From Actinomycetota bacterium (GTDB lineage Bacteria; Actinomycetota; Acidimicrobiia; IMCC26256; PALSA-610): 34,517 bases of DNA. Below are positions 7,160 to 15,138 of this stretch, piece by piece. The notes below the pieces were generated by a model that saw nothing but the letters and a program-made list of their open reading frames with translations, made no database searches and was not told where the DNA came from. Position 1 is the first letter of the stretch; each line of letters begins with the position of its first letter. The stretch covers positions 253,618 through 288,134 of the forward strand of contig PLBO01000151.1 in assembly GCA_003134555.1 (NCBI GenBank), given 5' to 3'. The position numbers were made by a program, and so were the translations under genes.

Positions 7160-9571
7160 TTAGCGAAGCTCGTATAGCGGGTTGACGATCGCGAGCCGAC
7201 CGCGGTGGTCGATCGCCATGCCTTCGACGGTGATGGTGGCACCGATCGTGATCCCCTCGATCTGGCGTCGACCGAAGAACACGATCGAGACCCCGCCGGT
7301 CTCGTCGACAACCGTGCACTCGAGGCTGGGGCTGCCGCCGAGCGGCTCGACGCGCACCGCCTGCACCCGACCGTGCACCTTCACGTGCTGACGGCAGCGC
7401 ACCTCGCCGATCGGCGTGGTGCCGGCGGGCCGGACGATCGGCACGGTATCGGTGAGCACCTTGGTGGCGGCCTTGACCTTGCCATTGCCATTGCCATTGC
7501 CATTGCTTCTGCTGTCGTTGCCGTTCGTGTTCGGCGGGGTGCCGCCGTCGGCGACAGAGATCTCTCCGCGGTCGTCGAAATGGAACGGCACGATCGTCAC
7601 GTTCGCGTGGGGCAGCCGTGAGATCTCGCGCGACAGCGACTCGGCGGTCTGGTCGTGGAGGATGCGGTGCCACGCGCCGTTGAACTTGCGCTCGGGCAAC
7701 AAGACACACACCTCGGAATCGCCGGAGCTCAGCTCGTGCGCGACGGTCTCGACCGCGGAGCGCGTGAGCCGTCGATCCGGGCAATCGATCAGCTCGAGCC
7801 CGAGATTGGTCAGACCATGTTCCCGCCACTCTGCCGCGAGCTCGTCGGCTTGGTGCTGGTCGATCACGAAGTGGACGGCTCGAAGCTCATCGGGTCGGAG
7901 TGCGCGTCCGAACTGAATCGCCCGGGCAACCGCGAGATCGAGGCGGTCGACGAACACCATCACGACCAGCCGCTTACGCACCGGCGCGGCGACGGCCTTC
8001 GGCACGTCGTGCGCGAGGGCTTCGTCCTCTGTCTTGTACTGATTGGCGAGGCGCATGAGGAAGAAGACCATGACCGGTACGAAGATGATGACCGCCCACG
8101 CACCGCCCTCGAACTTCGTGATCGCGATGACGATGTCGACGACGAGCGAGAGGATCGCGCCCATGCCGTTGACGAAGAGGCCCCAGCGCCAACCCTTCTC
8201 CTTCTCGCGGATGTGGTGCTTGGCCATCCCGGCCTGCGAGAGGGTGAATGACGTGAACACGCCGATGGCATAGAGCGGGATGAGGCGGGCGACCTTCGCA
8301 TCGGTCGCCACGAGCATCGCGATGGCGGCAGCGGCCAGGAAAATGATGCCGTTCGAGAACACGAGGCGGTGGCCGCGCTTGGTCAACTGGCGGGGCATGA
8401 AGTTGTCGCCCGCGTGGAACGACGCGAGCCGGGGGAAGTCGGCGAAGCTCGTATTCGCCGCGAGCACGAGGATGAGCATCGTGCCGCCCTGGAGGCAGTA
8501 GTAGAGGATGTTGCCGAGCAGTCCGCCGCCGTAGGCGAACTTGCCGATCTGCGAGATGACGGTCGGCGTGCCGTTGAGGAACGGCGCGACGTGCATCTTG
8601 CTGTCCATCCACGACAGACCGAAGAACATCGCGCCGAGCAACGAACCCATGATCACGAGGGTCTGCCGCGCGTTCTTCCATGCGGGCTTCTTGAACGCGG
8701 GCACACCGTTGGAGATGGCCTCGACGCCGGTGACCGCCGCGCCGCCCGAGGCGAACGACTTCAGCACGATGTAGAGCGCGGCTCCCATGAATAGGCCATC
8801 GCCCGGATGGCCGAACTTGACCAGGTCGTGCGTTTGTTGGGTGCTGTAGACGGCGTGTCCGAGGCCACCGAACATCGCTTTGAAGACGCCGACGCCGAGC
8901 AGGATCGCCATGTTGACGATGAAGAAGTAGGTCGGGACCGCGAAGATCTTGCCCGACTCGCGAACACCACGCAGGTTGCCGTAGGCGATGATGATGATGA
9001 ACGCGATCGAGATGGGCAGGATCCAGCGGTCGAATATCGGGAACGCCGATGCCAGTGCCGCCGTTCCGGCGGCCACCGATACGGAGACGGTCAGGACGTA
9101 GTCGGTGAGGAGCGCGACCCCCGCCACCTGCGCGGGCATCAGACCGAAGTTGTCGCGGGTCACCATGTAGGCGCCACCCGCAGTCGGGTACGCCTTGATC
9201 GTCTGGCGGTAGGAGAGGATCAAGAAGCCGAGCACGACGAGGAGTGCCATCGTGACCGGTAGGACCAGCGCGAACGCGGCGACGCCGATCGCGGGGAGAA
9301 GTACGCGCAGGATCTCCTCGGTTGCGTACGCCGAGGACGACAGGTTGTCCGACGCGAAAACGGCCAGCGCGGTGGGCTTGCCCAAACGCTCGTCGTCAAG
9401 CTGCTCGGTGTGGAGCGGCCGGCCGAGCAGCTTGTTCTTCAGCCGGTAGCGCGCGCTGTCGGGCGGAAGCTCGAGACCCGGGACGATCGGCACGGGCATG
9501 GGCCGAGCACGGGTGTCGCCTCCCACGGCGGGAGCCGTCTCGGTCGTCGGCGTCGGCTGCTCGGTCAGCAA
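7160..9571 (-). CDS. KimA-like APC-superfamily potassium/amino-acid transporter fused to a C-terminal OB-fold
   Basis: An 803-residue membrane protein. After a 60-residue cytosolic lead come about 12 membrane segments (roughly 65-525). The motifs A-S-D-N-L-S-S-S-A-Y-A-T-E-E and A-Y-P-T-A-G-G-A-Y match the KimA/YdaO branch, whose B. subtilis member is a K+/H+ symporter controlled by cyclic di-AMP. A cytosolic segment of about 140 residues (545-680) resembles a universal-stress-type fold. A low-complexity Asn-Gly linker (about 680-697) leads to an OB-fold-like end (about 715-803: H-V-K-V-H-G-R-V, C-T-V-V-D-E-T-G-G-V). The fusion is unusual. It starts at TTG with GGGAG 7 nt upstream; ATG at 9499 would give 779 residues. 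The protein is upstream of the PPOX gene in one unit. The transported solute is inferred only from family. Confidence 0.85.
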   Translation of the reverse strand: MLTEQPTPTTETAPAVGGDTRARPMPVPIVPGLELPPDSARYRLKNKLLGRPLHTEQLDDERLGKPTALAVFASDNLSSSAYATEEILRVLLPAIGVAAFALVLPVTMALLVVLGFLILSYRQTIKAYPTAGGAYMVTRDNFGLMPAQVAGVALLTDYVLTVSVSVAAGTAALASAFPIFDRWILPISIAFIIIIAYGNLRGVRESGKIFAVPTYFFIVNMAILLGVGVFKAMFGGLGHAVYSTQQTHDLVKFGHPGDGLFMGAALYIVLKSFASGGAAVTGVEAISNGVPAFKKPAWKNARQTLVIMGSLLGAMFFGLSWMDSKMHVAPFLNGTPTVISQIGKFAYGGGLLGNILYYCLQGGTMLILVLAANTSFADFPRLASFHAGDNFMPRQLTKRGHRLVFSNGIIFLAAAAIAMLVATDAKVARLIPLYAIGVFTSFTLSQAGMAKHHIREKEKGWRWGLFVNGMGAILSLVVDIVIAITKFEGGAWAVIIFVPVMVFFLMRLANQYKTEDEALAHDVPKAVAAPVRKRLVVMVFVDRLDLAVARAIQFGRALRPDELRAVHFVIDQHQADELAAEWREHGLTNLGLELIDCPDRRLTRSAVETVAHELSSGDSEVCVLLPERKFNGAWHRILHDQTAESLSREISRLPHANVTIVPFHFDDRGEISVADGGTPPNTNGNDSRSNGNGNGNGKVKAATKVLTDTVPIVRPAGTTPIGEVRCRQHVKVHGRVQAVRVEPLGGSPSLECTVVDETGGVSIVFFGRRQIEGITIGATITVEGMAIDHRGRLAIVNPLYELR
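7479..7506 (-). repeat. Hexanucleotide repeat (GCCATT on plus strand), over four copies, in the transporter linker
   Basis: Four perfect tandem GCCATT units (7481-7504), flanked by partial copies, encode alternating Asn-Gly on the minus strand. Because the unit is six bases, slippage would change linker length by two residues per unit without shifting the frame. Confidence 0.9.
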
Positions 9572-9663: not shown

Positions 9664-10293
9664 TCAAGAAGATGTCAAAAGGGTCGGGACCGCCGCCTCC
9701 GAGGGAGCGATCTCGGCGCGGGGAGAACCGATCGCGTGGGCGCGGCGGCGTGGCGCCAGAACGCGGAACGCCACCAGGAGGAATACGAACAACCCGCCGG
9801 TGAGGGCCACCCACTGCACGGCGAGGTTCTTGTTGTCGGCGCCGGAGGTGAAGCCGTGCACGGTCGCGAACCCGAACATCGGGATGCTCATGAGGTGCAC
9901 GGAATGCCACACCTTCCGCGGCAACCTCTTCATCGCCCACGACGTCAGTTGGATCGCGACGAGCAGGTAGGTCGCCGCGATTCCCCACGCGACCGCGCTG
10001 GTTCGCCAATGCGAAGCGAGGGGCACGAACAGCTCGCGCGGACCGAAGTACACGAAGTTGTCGGCCCAGAGTGCGACCACGTGCACACCGACGAAGACGA
10101 GGGAGAGCGTGCCGAGGAACTTGTGCAGGTCGAGCAACCAAGCGGGCACGCCTTTGCGACGGACGAGGCGCGTCGACAGCGCGAGACCCCAGAGGATGCT
10201 CGCGGTCACGACTGCCCAGGCGATCAGCCCCGAGGCGCGCGCCGCGTACCAGGAGAGCTTCGCGTTCAGCTCGCCGAGCATTGTCACCGTCAC
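9664..10293 (-). CDS. Ferric-reductase-like transmembrane cytochrome b
   Basis: A 209-residue integral membrane protein with about six hydrophobic spans. Histidines are spaced as in ferric-reductase-like domains: H57 and H71 in one helix pair (L-H-K-F-L-G then V-G-V-H-V-V) and H130/H133 and H146 (W-H-S-V-H-L then A-T-V-H-G). They could bind two stacked b-hemes that carry electrons across the membrane. It lacks the cytosolic FAD/NAD domain of full ferric reductases, so another protein must feed or take the electrons. The GTG start overlaps the stop of apbE (GTGA), tying it tightly to flavin attachment. The basic C-terminal tail is cytosolic. MsrQ-like function is an alternative, but no MsrP partner is present. 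Confidence 0.85.
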   Translation of the reverse strand: MTVTMLGELNAKLSWYAARASGLIAWAVVTASILWGLALSTRLVRRKGVPAWLLDLHKFLGTLSLVFVGVHVVALWADNFVYFGPRELFVPLASHWRTSAVAWGIAATYLLVAIQLTSWAMKRLPRKVWHSVHLMSIPMFGFATVHGFTSGADNKNLAVQWVALTGGLFVFLLVAFRVLAPRRRAHAIGSPRAEIAPSEAAVPTLLTSS

Positions 10294-11255
10294 TGTTCAG
10301 AGCCGGCCTCGAGCACGCGCCCGTCGTCGAGGAAGAGCCACGCCCGGACGCCCGCATCGCGCACGAGGTGCCCACCGGCGGCGGCCCCTCCGATGACGAC
10401 CGCCTTCGCGATCCCCTCCGCCCACCACGCGTCGCGTCCCGCGCAGACAACGGCAGTGACTCCCGTTCGGGCCGAATCGCCGGTCGCCGGGTCGACCAGG
10501 TGGTGGTAGCTGCGACCGTCACGCCTCCAGCAGCGCATGCGTGTGGTGCTGGTGACGATCGCGCCGTCGACGAGGGGAAAGCGAAAGGCGACGCGCGAGT
10601 CGTCGAACGGGTCGAGCACGGGAATGTCCCACCAACCGTCGGGCGGGGGTTCGCCGCGTGCGCGCAGGTCGCCGCCGAGGCCGACGAGCGCGCTCCGGGC
10701 TCCGCGATCGACGAGGCCGCGCGCGACGAGATCGGCCGCGAGGCCCTTGCCCACACCGCCGAGATCGACGCGTGCGCCGTGGGGGAGGCGCACGCGCGAG
10801 CGCGCGGTGTCGATGTCGACCCGCGCGAAGCCGGGGACCGCACGCGAGTGAGGCTCGGCGCCGGCGCCGATGTGCGACTCGCACCCGGTCGTGATCGACT
10901 CGAACGTTCGGTCGTAACCCGCGCGTTCGAGCGCGTCGAGGATCGTCGGGTCGAATCGTCCCGAGGTGGCGCGGTGCAGGTCGGCCGCGCAGGTGAGCGC
11001 GAGCAGCATCGACGCGCCGACGTCTGTCCACGCGCCCGCATTCGCGTTGAGGTGCGACAGCTCGCTGTCGGGCCGGAACCGGCTCCAGCACTGCTCCAGC
11101 CGCTCGAGCTCCGTTGTCGCCCAGTCGACGACGCCCTCGGGCGCGTCGCCGGCGATGATGTGCGCGCGGCTGCCCATGACTCGGGCGAGACGACGTTCCG
11201 ACCAATACGCGTCGCCGGTGTCGATCGACACCGTGTCGATCACCGGCTCGCTCAC
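10290..11255 (-). CDS. apbE: FAD:protein FMN transferase (ApbE)
   Basis: A 321-residue ApbE-family enzyme, which moves FMN from FAD to a Ser/Thr of a target protein. Visible family motifs are the N-terminal M-G-S-R-A-H-I, S-G-R-F-D-P-T-I (98-105), D-L-G-G-V-G-K-G-L-A-A-D (164-175) and H-H-L-V-D-P-A-T-G (251-259). The usual T-S-G before the last motif reads T-S-T-T. I choose the GTG at 11255 because its GTGA overlaps the stop of the upstream gene; an ATG at 11276 would add seven residues. Neither start gives a signal peptide or lipobox, so export to the outer face is not obvious. Its GTGA end overlaps the cytochrome b gene. Targets are likely in the same operon. Confidence 0.9.
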   Translation of the reverse strand: MSEPVIDTVSIDTGDAYWSERRLARVMGSRAHIIAGDAPEGVVDWATTELERLEQCWSRFRPDSELSHLNANAGAWTDVGASMLLALTCAADLHRATSGRFDPTILDALERAGYDRTFESITTGCESHIGAGAEPHSRAVPGFARVDIDTARSRVRLPHGARVDLGGVGKGLAADLVARGLVDRGARSALVGLGGDLRARGEPPPDGWWDIPVLDPFDDSRVAFRFPLVDGAIVTSTTRMRCWRRDGRSYHHLVDPATGDSARTGVTAVVCAGRDAWWAEGIAKAVVIGGAAAGGHLVRDAGVRAWLFLDDGRVLEAGSEQ

Positions 11256-11959
11256 GGGCACCTGGTGCCGCTGCATGCAGGCGGCGGCGGGGGCGGCGGC
11301 GCGAAGACGGTGGTCGGCGGGGAGGTGCTCGGCGGGGCAGTGGTCGGCGTCGGCACGCGGACGGTCGTCGGGGTCGGCTGCGAGGTGGGAGGCAAGAGCG
11401 TCGTTGCCGGGGGAGTGGCGGGAGTCGCGGTCGTCGGTACGTTCGGCGCGGGCGACATGGTCTGCGGCGGAGCCCACGGCGTGCCGACCGCGGGCGTGCC
11501 CGCGCCGCCGGGCTTCGGCGACGCGCCGGCGGGTTGACTCGGTAGCGGCGTGACGACGGCGCCCTTCGGCAGCGACGTCGGCGCGATCGGGTGCCCGAGC
11601 CGGTCGACGTACAGCGAGTGGGGCACGACCTTGACGACCACCTTCGGACGAGGCGCGGATCGCGTCGTCGGCGGGCCTGCGGTCGCCGCGCGCGCGAGGG
11701 GCGGTGCGGCGCCGGCGTTCGTCGACGCACCTGACGCCGTCGCCTGCGCGCCGAGCGCTCCGACCAACGAGAAGAACGCCGACGACGACAATCCCAAGCT
11801 GAGAATTCGCCCGGCGGCCGCCGGATGCTTGCGCCGCTTCCGCGCGCGCTTCGCCGTCGCACCGCTCGACGCGCCGCTCGGCGTGGCGATGCCGGTGGTG
11901 GTCTTGCGCGCCGCGAGCCGTGCGAGCCGCTCGTCGAGATGGGTGACAGGTTCGGTCAT
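11252..11959 (-). CDS. Membrane-anchored Pro/Thr-rich protein, candidate ApbE partner (protein B)
   Basis: A 235-residue protein of no family I recognise. It has a basic cytosolic N-terminus (residues 1-50) holding P28-S-G-A-S-S-G-A-T, one membrane segment (about 51-72), then A-S-G-A-S-T (75-80), a short conserved-looking stretch K-V-V-V-K-V-V-P-H-S-L-Y-V-D (107-119), and a long Pro/Thr-rich tail ending in C229-S-G-T-R-C234-P. The tail would lie outside the membrane. S-G-A-[S/T] resembles the core of the ApbE flavinylation site, though the preceding Asp of that consensus is absent. The ATG has a GAGG site overlapping the previous stop, 9 bp away, and its own TGA overlaps apbE. Operon position suggests a role in the same electron path. 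Confidence 0.75.
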   Translation of the reverse strand: MTEPVTHLDERLARLAARKTTTGIATPSGASSGATAKRARKRRKHPAAAGRILSLGLSSSAFFSLVGALGAQATASGASTNAGAAPPLARAATAGPPTTRSAPRPKVVVKVVPHSLYVDRLGHPIAPTSLPKGAVVTPLPSQPAGASPKPGGAGTPAVGTPWAPPQTMSPAPNVPTTATPATPPATTLLPPTSQPTPTTVRVPTPTTAPPSTSPPTTVFAPPPPPPPACSGTRCP

Positions 11960-11968
11960 GGCCGTACC

Positions 11969-12559
11969 TCAGTCGTCGCTCTGGCAGTTCCACACGCCGT
12001 TCAGCTCGAGCTGCGGCTGGCGACAGTTCGTCGGCATCGGCGGGATCGGCCGGTCCGCTGGCCAATCGTGCGGAACGCCCGGCGGGAAGGTCGTGGGCGT
12101 CGGCGTGGTCGGGACAGTCGTCGTCGGGATCGCCGGCGGAACCGTGGTTGGAACGGAGGGCGGCGTCCCCGACGCCCCGGGAGTGGTCGTCGGGCTCGTA
12201 CGCGGCGCTTCCGGCTGCTTTGCCGGAGGAACGGTCGCAGACGTCGGCGTCGGTGTCGTGGGATCAGTGCCGGCCGTCGCGCGTGGGCCCGGTGTCGCCG
12301 TCGCCGACCCTGCCGACGCGAGCCCCACGCCGGCGCCGGTGTCGACGACATAACGGTCGTAGACGTCACGGGAGCGGAAGATGACGCGACGCTTCGCGCT
12401 CGCGTTGCCGGCGCTCGCGGCGAACGAGCCCGAGCCGTGCGTCGACGCGCCGCCGAACCCGAGCAGCGACGTGCCGCTGACGGCGGCCGCGGCCACGATG
12501 GCGCTTCCGAGCAAGATCGTCGCCGCGCTCGCGACGGCAAGCGCCTTCGTCCGTTCCAT
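11969..12559 (-). CDS. Membrane-anchored Pro/Thr-rich protein, paralogue-like first gene of the apbE operon (protein A)
   Basis: A 196-residue protein, not assigned to a family. An N-terminal signal-anchor (about 7-28) is followed by F-G-G-A-S-T (35-40), a basic stretch K-R-R-V-I-F-R-S-R-D-V-Y-D-R-Y-V-V-D (56-73), a Pro/Thr-rich linker, and a C-terminal segment with C179 and C192 twelve residues apart. The order of parts (anchor, GAST, V/Y-rich stretch, Pro/Thr tail, two Cys) is the same as in the next gene, so the two may be distant paralogues. The ATG has a strong ribosome site (GGAGGGGAG). It opens the operon that continues into apbE and the cytochrome b gene. Confidence 0.75.
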   Translation of the reverse strand: MERTKALAVASAATILLGSAIVAAAAVSGTSLLGFGGASTHGSGSFAASAGNASAKRRVIFRSRDVYDRYVVDTGAGVGLASAGSATATPGPRATAGTDPTTPTPTSATVPPAKQPEAPRTSPTTTPGASGTPPSVPTTVPPAIPTTTVPTTPTPTTFPPGVPHDWPADRPIPPMPTNCRQPQLELNGVWNCQSDD

Positions 12560-12637: not shown

Positions 12638-13315
12638 CTAGCCGACGCGTCGTACGACGATGATGGGCGTGAGCTCGTCGTTCTGGCCGAGGGGGTTGTC
12701 GAGCAGCACCTCGCGGACGACCGACCGATCGGTGGTGAACCCCGGGCTCGTGCCGAGGACCTCGACGTTGATGTTGTTGGCGTCGACGATGGCGACCGGC
12801 ACGCCGCCCATATGGGCGGAGATGTCCGCGGCCGCGGCGTCGGGATTCGCCGGTCCGAGCATCGCGAACTCGTCGAAGGGTTTCACCGTGGCCGGGCTGA
12901 AGCCGTCGATCTCGGAGATGCGGTGACCGGCGACGCGATAGAAGTCGCCGCGCCGGCGAAGCACGAGCCGGCTGGTCGCGCCGATGATCATCGCGAACAG
13001 CATGCGCCACCACCCGGCCTGCATGATCGCGACCTGCATCTTTCGCGGATCGGAGTAGCCGACGTCGTCGGGGTGCTTGGTGACGCCCTTGACGAGCAGC
13101 TTGGCGAGCACGCCGGGTCGTACGACCGAGTGATGGATCACCCGGCCCTGCGAGATCGTCACGAACTTCTCCGACACCGCGAGCCAATCTCCCGGCTGCA
13201 GCACCGGCTTCACGTACTCGTCGAAGACGGGCTCGAGCGGTTCCTTGATGTGGATCAGGTGCGTCTGCACCGCGATCCGCTCGTAGTCGATCCCCTGCGC
13301 GCGCCGGATCGTCAT
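12638..13315 (-). CDS. Coenzyme F420:L-glutamate ligase-like protein (CofE/FbiB fold)
   Basis: A 225-residue protein with the start of a CofE-type ligase: a glycine-flanked G-D-W-L-A-V-S-E-K-F-V-T-I-S-Q-G-R (residues 42-58) and, near the C-terminus, V-A-I-V-D-A-N-N-I-N and a T-D-R segment. True CofE adds glutamates to F420-0 with GTP. This protein differs by having a hydrophobic stretch around residues 101-118 and no attached nitroreductase domain, so I call it only ligase-like. Its ATG overlaps the stop of the asparagine synthase gene (ATGA), which points to a joint amide- or glutamate-ligation task rather than F420 itself. No other F420 gene is visible in the window. Confidence 0.75.
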   Translation of the reverse strand: MTIRRAQGIDYERIAVQTHLIHIKEPLEPVFDEYVKPVLQPGDWLAVSEKFVTISQGRVIHHSVVRPGVLAKLLVKGVTKHPDDVGYSDPRKMQVAIMQAGWWRMLFAMIIGATSRLVLRRRGDFYRVAGHRISEIDGFSPATVKPFDEFAMLGPANPDAAAADISAHMGGVPVAIVDANNINVEVLGTSPGFTTDRSVVREVLLDNPLGQNDELTPIIVVRRVG

Positions 13316-15138
13316 ACCGCCACCGCCTGATCCATGTACCGACGCATCCACAACTCGGTGACGAGCACGCGCCAAAAGACGAGACCGTCACCCGGACGGC
13401 CCGCGAGGTACTCGTCCCACGCGGTCACGAGCTGCGCGGGGTTGTAGAGGTCGCGCGACGTGAGCTCGGGCGACGAGAAGATCGCGCGGATCTCGGGCGC
13501 CTTCTCCTTCATCCAGGCGATGTCCGGGTTCGTGAAGCCGATCTTCGAGCGGCGCAGCCGGTTCTTCTCCGGCATGCGCCCCTTCATCGCGTTGCGGTAC
13601 ACCGCGCGGTTCCAGCCGCCTTTGATCTTCTGGTCGATCGGCAGGGAGAAGATGAATTCGACCAGCTCGTGGTCGAGGAACGGAACCCGGGCCTCGATCG
13701 AGAATGCCATCGAGTTCTTGTCCTCGTAACGCAGGAGATCGGGCGTCGAGTACTGCAGCACGTCGCTCGCGAGGCGCTCGTTGAGATTTTTGTGCGCGCT
13801 GAAGTGCGCGGTCGTCAGCGCCGATCCGGGCTCGAGCAACTCACGAGGGTTCACCGGGTTCGCGGTCCGTCCGGGCAGCTTCGAGCGGAACAACTCGCCC
13901 GCATACTTCTTGTAGAGGTCGCGGCCCTTGACGATCTCGCGCGCGGCCGCGAGATAGTGGCGCTGCGCGATCGCCGAGCTGAGATAGGTGCGGAAATAGG
14001 GGATGTAACCGGCGAGCAACTCGTCGCCTCCGTTACCGCTCACCATGACCTTCACGTGCTCGCTCGCGAGCCGGTACACCGAGTAGTAGGCGTAGGGCGC
14101 CGACGCGATCGTGGGTTCCTCCTGGTACCAGATCCATTCGTCGATCTCGTTCCAGAAGTCGTCGAGCTTGGGGTACACGTAGTGCGGAATGCTGCCGACC
14201 GCGTGCTCGACCTCGCGGATGTACTCGCTCTCGTCGATGCTCTGGCCCGGATACAGCGCGGAGAAGGTGTAGAGGCCGGCGGTGTGCAGGTCGGTGCCGC
14301 TCGACATGAGCCGTGCCATGGTCGACACGACCCCGCTGGAGTCGAGCCCGCCGGAGAGCGGGACGCCGACGGGCACGTCGGAGATGAGATGCCGTTTCAC
14401 GACGTCGTCGAAGCGGCTCGCGAACTCCTGCGCGTAGTCGTCGTCGGCTCGACTCGACGCGAACTCCGGATTCACCGGCGGATTCCAGTAGCGCTCGATC
14501 TTCACGATGCCGTCGGGCCGGACGAGCATCGAGTGCGCGGGAAGCAAACGCTTCACCCCGTCGAAGAAGGTGTCCTCGCCGTCGTCGTGCACACGGAACA
14601 GGAGAAAGCGCCGCAGCGCGTCGACTGCGGGGCGGCGCGCCACGCGCGCGTCCTGGAAGAGCGCCTTCAGCTCGGACGCGAACGCGAAGCCGGTCGGACC
14701 GTCGACGTAGTAGAGCGGCTTGATACCGAGGCGGTCGCGCGCGAGGAAGAGCTCGCCGCGTTCGTGATCCGAGATCGCAAAGGCGAACATTCCGGTCAGA
14801 TGGTCGACGACGTTGCGACCCCACTCCTCGAAGCCGCGCAGGATGACCTCGCTGTCGGAATGGTGGGTGACGAACCGTCGACCTCGCTGCTCGAGCTCCC
14901 GGCGCAGCTCGGCGTGGTTGTAGATCTCGCCGTTGAACACGAGTGCGAGGTTGTGGTCGTCGCTGTAGATCGGTTGGTCGCCGGTCGCGACGTCGATGAT
15001 CGCGAGCCGGCGCATCCCGATCGAGAAGTGCGTCCCGACGTCGGTGCCCTGTCCGTCGGGCCCACGGTGGACGATCGAGCGCAACATCTGCTCCAGCAGC
15101 TCGGGATCCGAGCCGGCGAACCCGACGATGCCACACAT
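13312..15138 (-). CDS. asnB: Glutamine-hydrolysing asparagine synthase family protein
   Basis: A 608-residue two-domain enzyme. The start is fixed by M-C-G-I-V-G, since Cys2 must be the N-terminal nucleophile after Met removal. The glutaminase domain (1-200) has H-R-G-P-D-G and F-N-G-E-I-Y-N-H. The synthase domain has the PPi loop S-G-G-L-D-S-S (about 264-270) and S-G-N-G-G-D-E-L (about 365). It amidates Asp, or in paralogues other carboxylates, using glutamine and ATP. The much longer open frame to 15801 upstream is antisense or out-of-frame shadow. The coupling to the ligase-like gene makes a special-purpose paralogue possible. Confidence 0.93.
   Translation of the reverse strand: MCGIVGFAGSDPELLEQMLRSIVHRGPDGQGTDVGTHFSIGMRRLAIIDVATGDQPIYSDDHNLALVFNGEIYNHAELRRELEQRGRRFVTHHSDSEVILRGFEEWGRNVVDHLTGMFAFAISDHERGELFLARDRLGIKPLYYVDGPTGFAFASELKALFQDARVARRPAVDALRRFLLFRVHDDGEDTFFDGVKRLLPAHSMLVRPDGIVKIERYWNPPVNPEFASSRADDDYAQEFASRFDDVVKRHLISDVPVGVPLSGGLDSSGVVSTMARLMSSGTDLHTAGLYTFSALYPGQSIDESEYIREVEHAVGSIPHYVYPKLDDFWNEIDEWIWYQEEPTIASAPYAYYSVYRLASEHVKVMVSGNGGDELLAGYIPYFRTYLSSAIAQRHYLAAAREIVKGRDLYKKYAGELFRSKLPGRTANPVNPRELLEPGSALTTAHFSAHKNLNERLASDVLQYSTPDLLRYEDKNSMAFSIEARVPFLDHELVEFIFSLPIDQKIKGGWNRAVYRNAMKGRMPEKNRLRRSKIGFTNPDIAWMKEKAPEIRAIFSSPELTSRDLYNPAQLVTAWDEYLAGRPGDGLVFWRVLVTELWMRRYMDQAVAV

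Follow-up and report, generated by a model that had tools for sequence, protein, structure and literature searches.

The window, i.e., the whole stretch of 34,517 nucleotides that was analysed, carries on its minus strand four consecutive genes in the order companion A, companion B, apbE, and cytochrome b. As listed in Table 1, the genes are tightly packed: companion B and apbE share a GTGA overlap of four bases, as do apbE and the cytochrome b gene, and the gap between the two companions is 9 bases. The initial annotation had described a four-gene operon with two GTGA overlaps, and the genes, both overlaps, and the Pfam identities are borne out. Directly upstream of companion A lies a gene for an F420-0 gamma-glutamyl ligase-like protein (positions 12638 to 13375, minus strand; PF01996, 2e-6), and a gene of the same kind lies upstream of companion B at L090 and L092, which come from two genomes of the genus that seem to be missing A. 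Positions 7160 to 9571 of the minus strand encode an amino acid permease family protein (PF13520) that has a weak C-terminal match to an OB-fold (PF01336), below the curated cut-off.

Table 1. Genes and features of the apbE operon (positions are those of the window)
Feature	Position	Strand	Description
Companion A	11969-12559	(-)	196 aa, with an N-terminal anchor and a stretch rich in Pro and Thr; NCRQPQLELNGVWNCQSDD at the C-terminus
GAST of A, residues 37-40	12440-12451	(-)	not conserved
Two-Cys C-terminal segment of A, Cys179-Cys192	11984-12025	(-)	kept in G010 (GCREPHLEDDGTWNCQH)
Companion B	11252-11959	(-)	235 aa; proposed flavin-carrying tether
Membrane helix of B, residues 52-70	11750-11806	(-)	preceded by RARKRRKHPAAAGR; assigned from hydropathy and the N-terminal profile
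GAST of B, residues 77-80	11720-11731	(-)	not conserved
C-terminal tail of B, CSGTRCP, residues 229-235	11255-11275	(-)	predicted FMN acceptor Thr232
apbE	10290-11255	(-)	FAD:protein FMN transferase without signal peptide; PF02424, 7e-47
Cytochrome b	9664-10293	(-)	MsrQ-like/ferric-reductase-like, 209 aa; Ferric_reduct PF01794, 1.2e-6

The ApbE of the window scores 160.6 bits against PF02424 (curated cut-off, 25.6), and the best match among its relatives of solved structure is 1vrm (2.1e-23), with 6nxi at 6e-17. The PF02424 domain begins at residue 27, and no hydrophobic N-terminus was found on the protein; i.e., neither the signal peptide nor the lipidation site of the extracytosolic type is present. 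The cytochrome b scores 29.0 bits against PF01794 (cut-off, 28) and is devoid of an NAD-binding domain. Its His57/His71 and His133/His146 form two heme-ligand pairs, which are nearly invariant (95 to 100%) in an alignment with 87 homologues. When the proteins of the operon and of two neighbouring genes were scanned against Pfam, no FMN-binding domain of the kind that accompanies typical MsrQ-like flavinylation was found.

Companion B consists of a basic cytosolic N-terminus, a single membrane helix, a linker of approximately 165 residues rich in Ala, Pro, Thr, and Ser, and the C-terminal peptide CSGTRCP. No Pfam family matched A or B up to E = 1, FMN_bind (PF04205) included, and no convincing Pfam or NCBIfam family was found for either companion or for ten other A/B proteins. 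In the AlphaFold model of B, which was computed from the single sequence, the region beyond the helix is mostly low-confidence coil. The N-terminal flank of the helix is the more positive one in 97% of 66 family members, which points to an N-in, C-out topology for the B family. The median number of residues after the helix is 80 in the family and 165 in the B of the window. The Tat export consensus was not found in B, though RR is frequent.

Relatives of B that were retrieved with its N-terminal part are neighbours of apbE, of a cytochrome of this kind, or of both, and share a conserved terminal peptide (SHAS, THGS, SSGS, SRGS, or SGGS). A profile that covers the N-terminus and helix alone was applied to 296 genomes of the phylum, and its matches were compared with the positions of ApbE; most of the convincing ones are located within 1.5 kb of apbE, and the tails of the new members include VTKSRAS, VTRSGGS, VTRSDGS, VTTSHAS, TTRTFAS, and DASSHGS. 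The B of the window matches the B N-terminal profile at E = 3e-42, a value to be read with the window being part of the seed, and it combines Arg before one helix, a low-complexity linker, an acceptor-like tail in its Cys variant, and an adjoining apbE. When the 45 N-terminal residues of B were searched over named genomes, none of the 591 pattern matches was confirmed by tblastn; relatives in named genomes were sought through the ApbE alignment instead, and tail-tether genes are present in Nocardia salmonicida and Streptomyces iakyrus. A comparison with plasmid records gave no match for the tail protein of the latter. B is a member of an undescribed family that is found across many actinobacteria; no published description of it was found in the open-access literature, subscription papers and preprints being outside the scope of the search. 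At one locus (L144:1222-1800 and 1790-2566), two different tail-tether genes stand in tandem before one apbE and end in VTTSHAS and TTRTFAS, respectively. Two further tail-tether genes (L224:2656-2976(-), HSTTRAS; L225:2831-3190(-), DASSHGS) have neither apbE nor the cytochrome nearby, and apbE is encoded elsewhere in the genome.

The C-terminal peptide was examined in 101 genes selected by position, i.e., genes just upstream of a signal-less ApbE that encode one hydrophobic segment and a low-complexity linker, with the ends of the proteins disregarded in the selection. The motif [ST]x[GA]S stands exactly at the C-terminus in 47 of the 101 and within two residues of it in 66, compared with 1.1% of positions inside the same linkers; the P value of the C-terminal excess (2e-63) is, like the others given here, indicative, since the survey sequences are related, and the loci span many families. 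Among loci that were added once the motif was already defined, 32 of 74 carry it exactly at the C-terminus (P = 4e-43), and opposite-strand open reading frames of the same look, which served as a control, have it in 4 of 79 cases. A looser form of the tail pattern occurs in 16 of 18 held-out members that were found by the N-terminus-only profile and are linked to apbE or the cytochrome. About a third of the position-defined neighbours miss the strict motif, and many of these have near-variants of it, such as TKTS, TRSS, and SGQS.

The tail is also associated with a particular kind of ApbE. A tail-like neighbour accompanies 68 of 144 signal-less ApbEs and none of 31 with a signal peptide or N-terminal helix, a contrast that is partly one of lineage, as the latter control comes largely from other lineages. 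The cytochrome adjoins 60 of 65 tail loci and none of 32 loci of signal-peptide ApbEs. The association of the companion with apbE, which the initial annotation had proposed to check, holds: apbE is present in all 16 independent B-positive genomes outside the seed and in 123 of 278 others (P = 4e-6).

The known ApbE acceptor is [S/T]GA[S/T], in which FMN is attached to the last residue (PMC8238504), and a seven-residue artificial tag is labelled best by ApbE at the N- or C-terminus of a protein, with a minor effect of changing its Asp to Ala (PMC12052999). The tail motif has the same spacing, with a small residue at -1, Ser/Thr at -3, and sometimes Asp at -6; the Asp of the 7-mer D-x-x-[S/T]-G-A-[S/T] is present in members such as DTSSHAS and DASSHGS. 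In its relaxed form, [STC]-x-[GA]-[ST], the tail is conserved at the C-terminus beside apbE. We therefore consider that the tails of B-type proteins are probably flavin acceptors of ApbE, and we read B as a putative natural flavin tag on a tether, which would be a new class of ApbE substrate.

The tail could instead be recognised by ApbE, the cytochrome, or an export factor as a conserved signal for docking, processing, or localisation, without being flavinylated itself, and some other protein would be the ApbE substrate. Short C-terminal motifs frequently act in recognition, two tail genes are found at a distance from apbE, and the tail tolerates both residues after the Ser (SGSR, SGGSGG, and CSGTRCP) and changes of Gly to Ser. 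However, the occurrence beside apbE of a motif with the spacing of an ApbE acceptor would then be a coincidence, and FMN_bind, DUF2271, and DUF3570 are missing in most of the sampled genomes that carry the tail, which makes this alternative unlikely. No FMN_bind domain was found in 13 of the 18 B-positive genomes of the phylum sample, nor in G010, which has seven ApbE matches; apbE is present and FMN_bind absent in 14 tail-carrying genomes. Among the 15 genomes tested, DUF2271 and DUF3570 were not found, and NqrB/RnfD gave three weak matches only. In carrier genomes without FMN_bind, DUF2271, and DUF3570, the tail protein appears to be the best candidate substrate of ApbE.

The genome of the window does contain FMN_bind, and its strongest match is located on another contig, adjoining its own apbE (G000 contig 139, L128:5226-6538). 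In this canonical pair, the FMN_bind protein is anchored at its N-terminus and its ApbE is signal-less, so that the addition of flavin before export seems to be usual here. The acceptor of the FMN_bind protein, NIIGGAS, likewise has neither the Asp nor a Ser/Thr at -3. Such a gene would fit a second alternative, in which A and B, whose linkers are of low complexity, are ordinary wall-spanning anchors that scaffold the cytochrome and the ApbE of the operon serves an FMN_bind protein encoded elsewhere. We regard it as improbable, as an ApbE is already paired with the FMN_bind gene, FMN_bind is lacking altogether in 14 relatives that have tail proteins, and a scaffold role leaves the conserved extreme C-terminus of B unexplained.

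The initial annotation had taken both companions as flavin carriers of a new type and had placed the acceptor at a GAST beside the membrane anchor of each. This motif is indeed present in both proteins; within SGAST of B, the stretch SGAS fits [S/T]GA[S/T], though not the Asp of the full consensus, and the three B-containing genomes of the window's genus all have GAST. However, by the orthologue check that the initial annotation had asked for, GAST is not conserved, being replaced by GFAN in G010 and WSSS in G007, the nearest orthologues outside the genus, and by AATR in the same-genome paralogue, it occurs in only 6 of the 101 equivalent upstream genes (3 of the 6 in the window's own genus), its site adjoins the membrane helix, and the sharing between A and B is at chance level (7 common tetrapeptides versus 4.6 in shuffles, P = 0.19), as expected from proteins that are both rich in Ala, Ser, Thr, Gly, and Pro, so that on the orthologues and shuffles we reject GAST as the FMN acceptor, a reading with very little chance of being right. 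The idea of a flavin carrier thus survives for B, probably with the C-terminal tail as its site, and is unsupported for A.

No sign of homology between A and B was found. B fits the B N-terminal profile strongly, and A scores weakly with the A N-terminal set; the two Cys of A are residues 179 and 192, and those of B are residues 229 and 234. The pattern YVDxxGxP in the V/Y-rich stretch was rejected as a general motif, as, in the form searched, it occurs in only 2 of the 101 neighbours and does not match the B of the window. At about 45 loci, the gene upstream of B (e.g., L148:1791-2750(-), L142:786-1469, and L247:3164-3619) encodes an anchored protein with a hyperacidic C-terminus that is often rich in Asp and His. 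A small all-beta domain is predicted in some of these proteins (AlphaFold pLDDT about 85 to 90), and no significant PDB match was obtained when the beta-domain of one relative of A was used in a fold search. The A of the window occupies the same position but is without the hyperacidic tail and ends in the two-Cys segment. As a speculation, the Asp/His-rich tails of the relatives could hold metal ions.

The tail of the window belongs to a Cys-bracketed variant that also occurs elsewhere in the genus and in a few relatives from the same family (CSGTRCP, CQGSRCG, CSGSKCP, and CKGSKCP). In this variant, the Ser/Thr position is kept, Cys takes the place of Ser/Thr at -3, and a second Cys follows two residues after the acceptor. 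In relatives with [ST]-x-[GA]-S tails, the residue aligned with Thr232 is the terminal Ser. Compared with the full 7-mer, the sequence of the window, P-P-A-C-S-G-T, fits fully at the acceptor only; it has no Asp, Cys is at -3, and Ser and Gly are in place of the consensus Gly and Ala. In the ApbE tree, the Cys-tail loci fall into one group of seven rows with a support of 99, four of which were labelled Cys-tail by the script; L015, with the tail CKGSKCP, is in the same group. Cys-flanked tails were also observed in the unrelated L195, L196, and L140 (VCTSAPSGQTTCD, HCYTNASGTFQGCW, and KCSPWSHQQGKC), possibly an independent Cys-bracketed version. The tail of the window is likewise a plausible ApbE acceptor, held with somewhat less assurance than the tails of the family at large, and it is our guess that the Cys pair closes a disulfide ring around the acceptor in the window's clade.

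Taken as a whole, the operon probably encodes a compact transmembrane system for electron export of the ApbE/MsrQ-like kind, in which a bare peptide replaces the folded FMN-binding domain. B would be anchored by its one helix in the N-in, C-out orientation, with a long linker and a terminal peptide recognised by ApbE. The signal-less ApbE would move FMN from cytosolic FAD to a Ser or Thr at or near the C-terminus of B, Thr232 in the window; since the enzyme has no signal peptide and the tail is expected outside, FMN would have to be added before export. Electrons from a cytosolic or quinol donor would then pass through the two hemes of the cytochrome b and reach the FMN carried at the far end of B, a direction of flow that we infer, and the mobile FMN would swing through the extracytosolic space and reduce an acceptor, for which iron is a speculative candidate. 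The complete proposal, namely a widespread actinobacterial class of ApbE substrates without a flavin-binding fold, with FMN attached inside before export to the C-terminal residue of a disordered tether that acts as a swinging arm for a two-heme cytochrome, and with a Cys pair that may form a flavin-disulfide unit in the window's clade, appears to us evenly poised between right and wrong.

In the ApbE substrates known to us, the acceptor is within a folded domain or extends from one. If the proposal is true, a natural terminal flavin tag explains many orphan signal-less ApbEs in Actinomycetota, including those of Streptomyces and Nocardia, a flavin can serve as an electron carrier without a binding domain, and the family provides tags that protein engineers could use as they are. 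According to the survey of Meheust et al. (2021; PMC8238504), orphan apbE genes still have unidentified substrates; a cluster was retained in that survey only if a target gene carried a signal peptide or lipidation site, a filter by which operons like that of the window would be missed.

The MsrQ-like flavinylation systems of that survey resemble the operon in combining ApbE with a PF01794 cytochrome that has two His pairs, in their occurrence in Actinobacteria, and in their proposed role in extracytosolic electron transfer (PMC8238504), whereas the operon of the window has no FMN_bind protein and its ApbE has no signal peptide. The DUF2271 and DUF3570 substrates were found, much as here, through a conserved [S/T]GA[S/T] in proteins beside orphan apbE genes (PMC8238504), but they have folded domains, and neither occurs in the 15 genomes tested. 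Carriers with FMN_bind (PF04205) share with B an N-terminal anchor, a linker, and a Ser/Thr acceptor for ApbE, as in the same-genome protein P0005 (GGAS); B differs in having no recognisable folded domain and, as proposed, in using the C-terminus itself as the acceptor. FMN_red proteins with a C-terminal flavinylation extension also bear the acceptor motif on an unstructured extension, which lies near the flavin-binding site of the enzyme domain (PMC11334425), whereas B has no such domain. The closest likeness in form is to the Flavin-tag of the Fraaije group, in which a short terminal acceptor peptide is enough for ApbE (PMC12052999); that tag is engineered, and B would be its natural counterpart, with relaxed Gly and Ala positions and usually without Asp.
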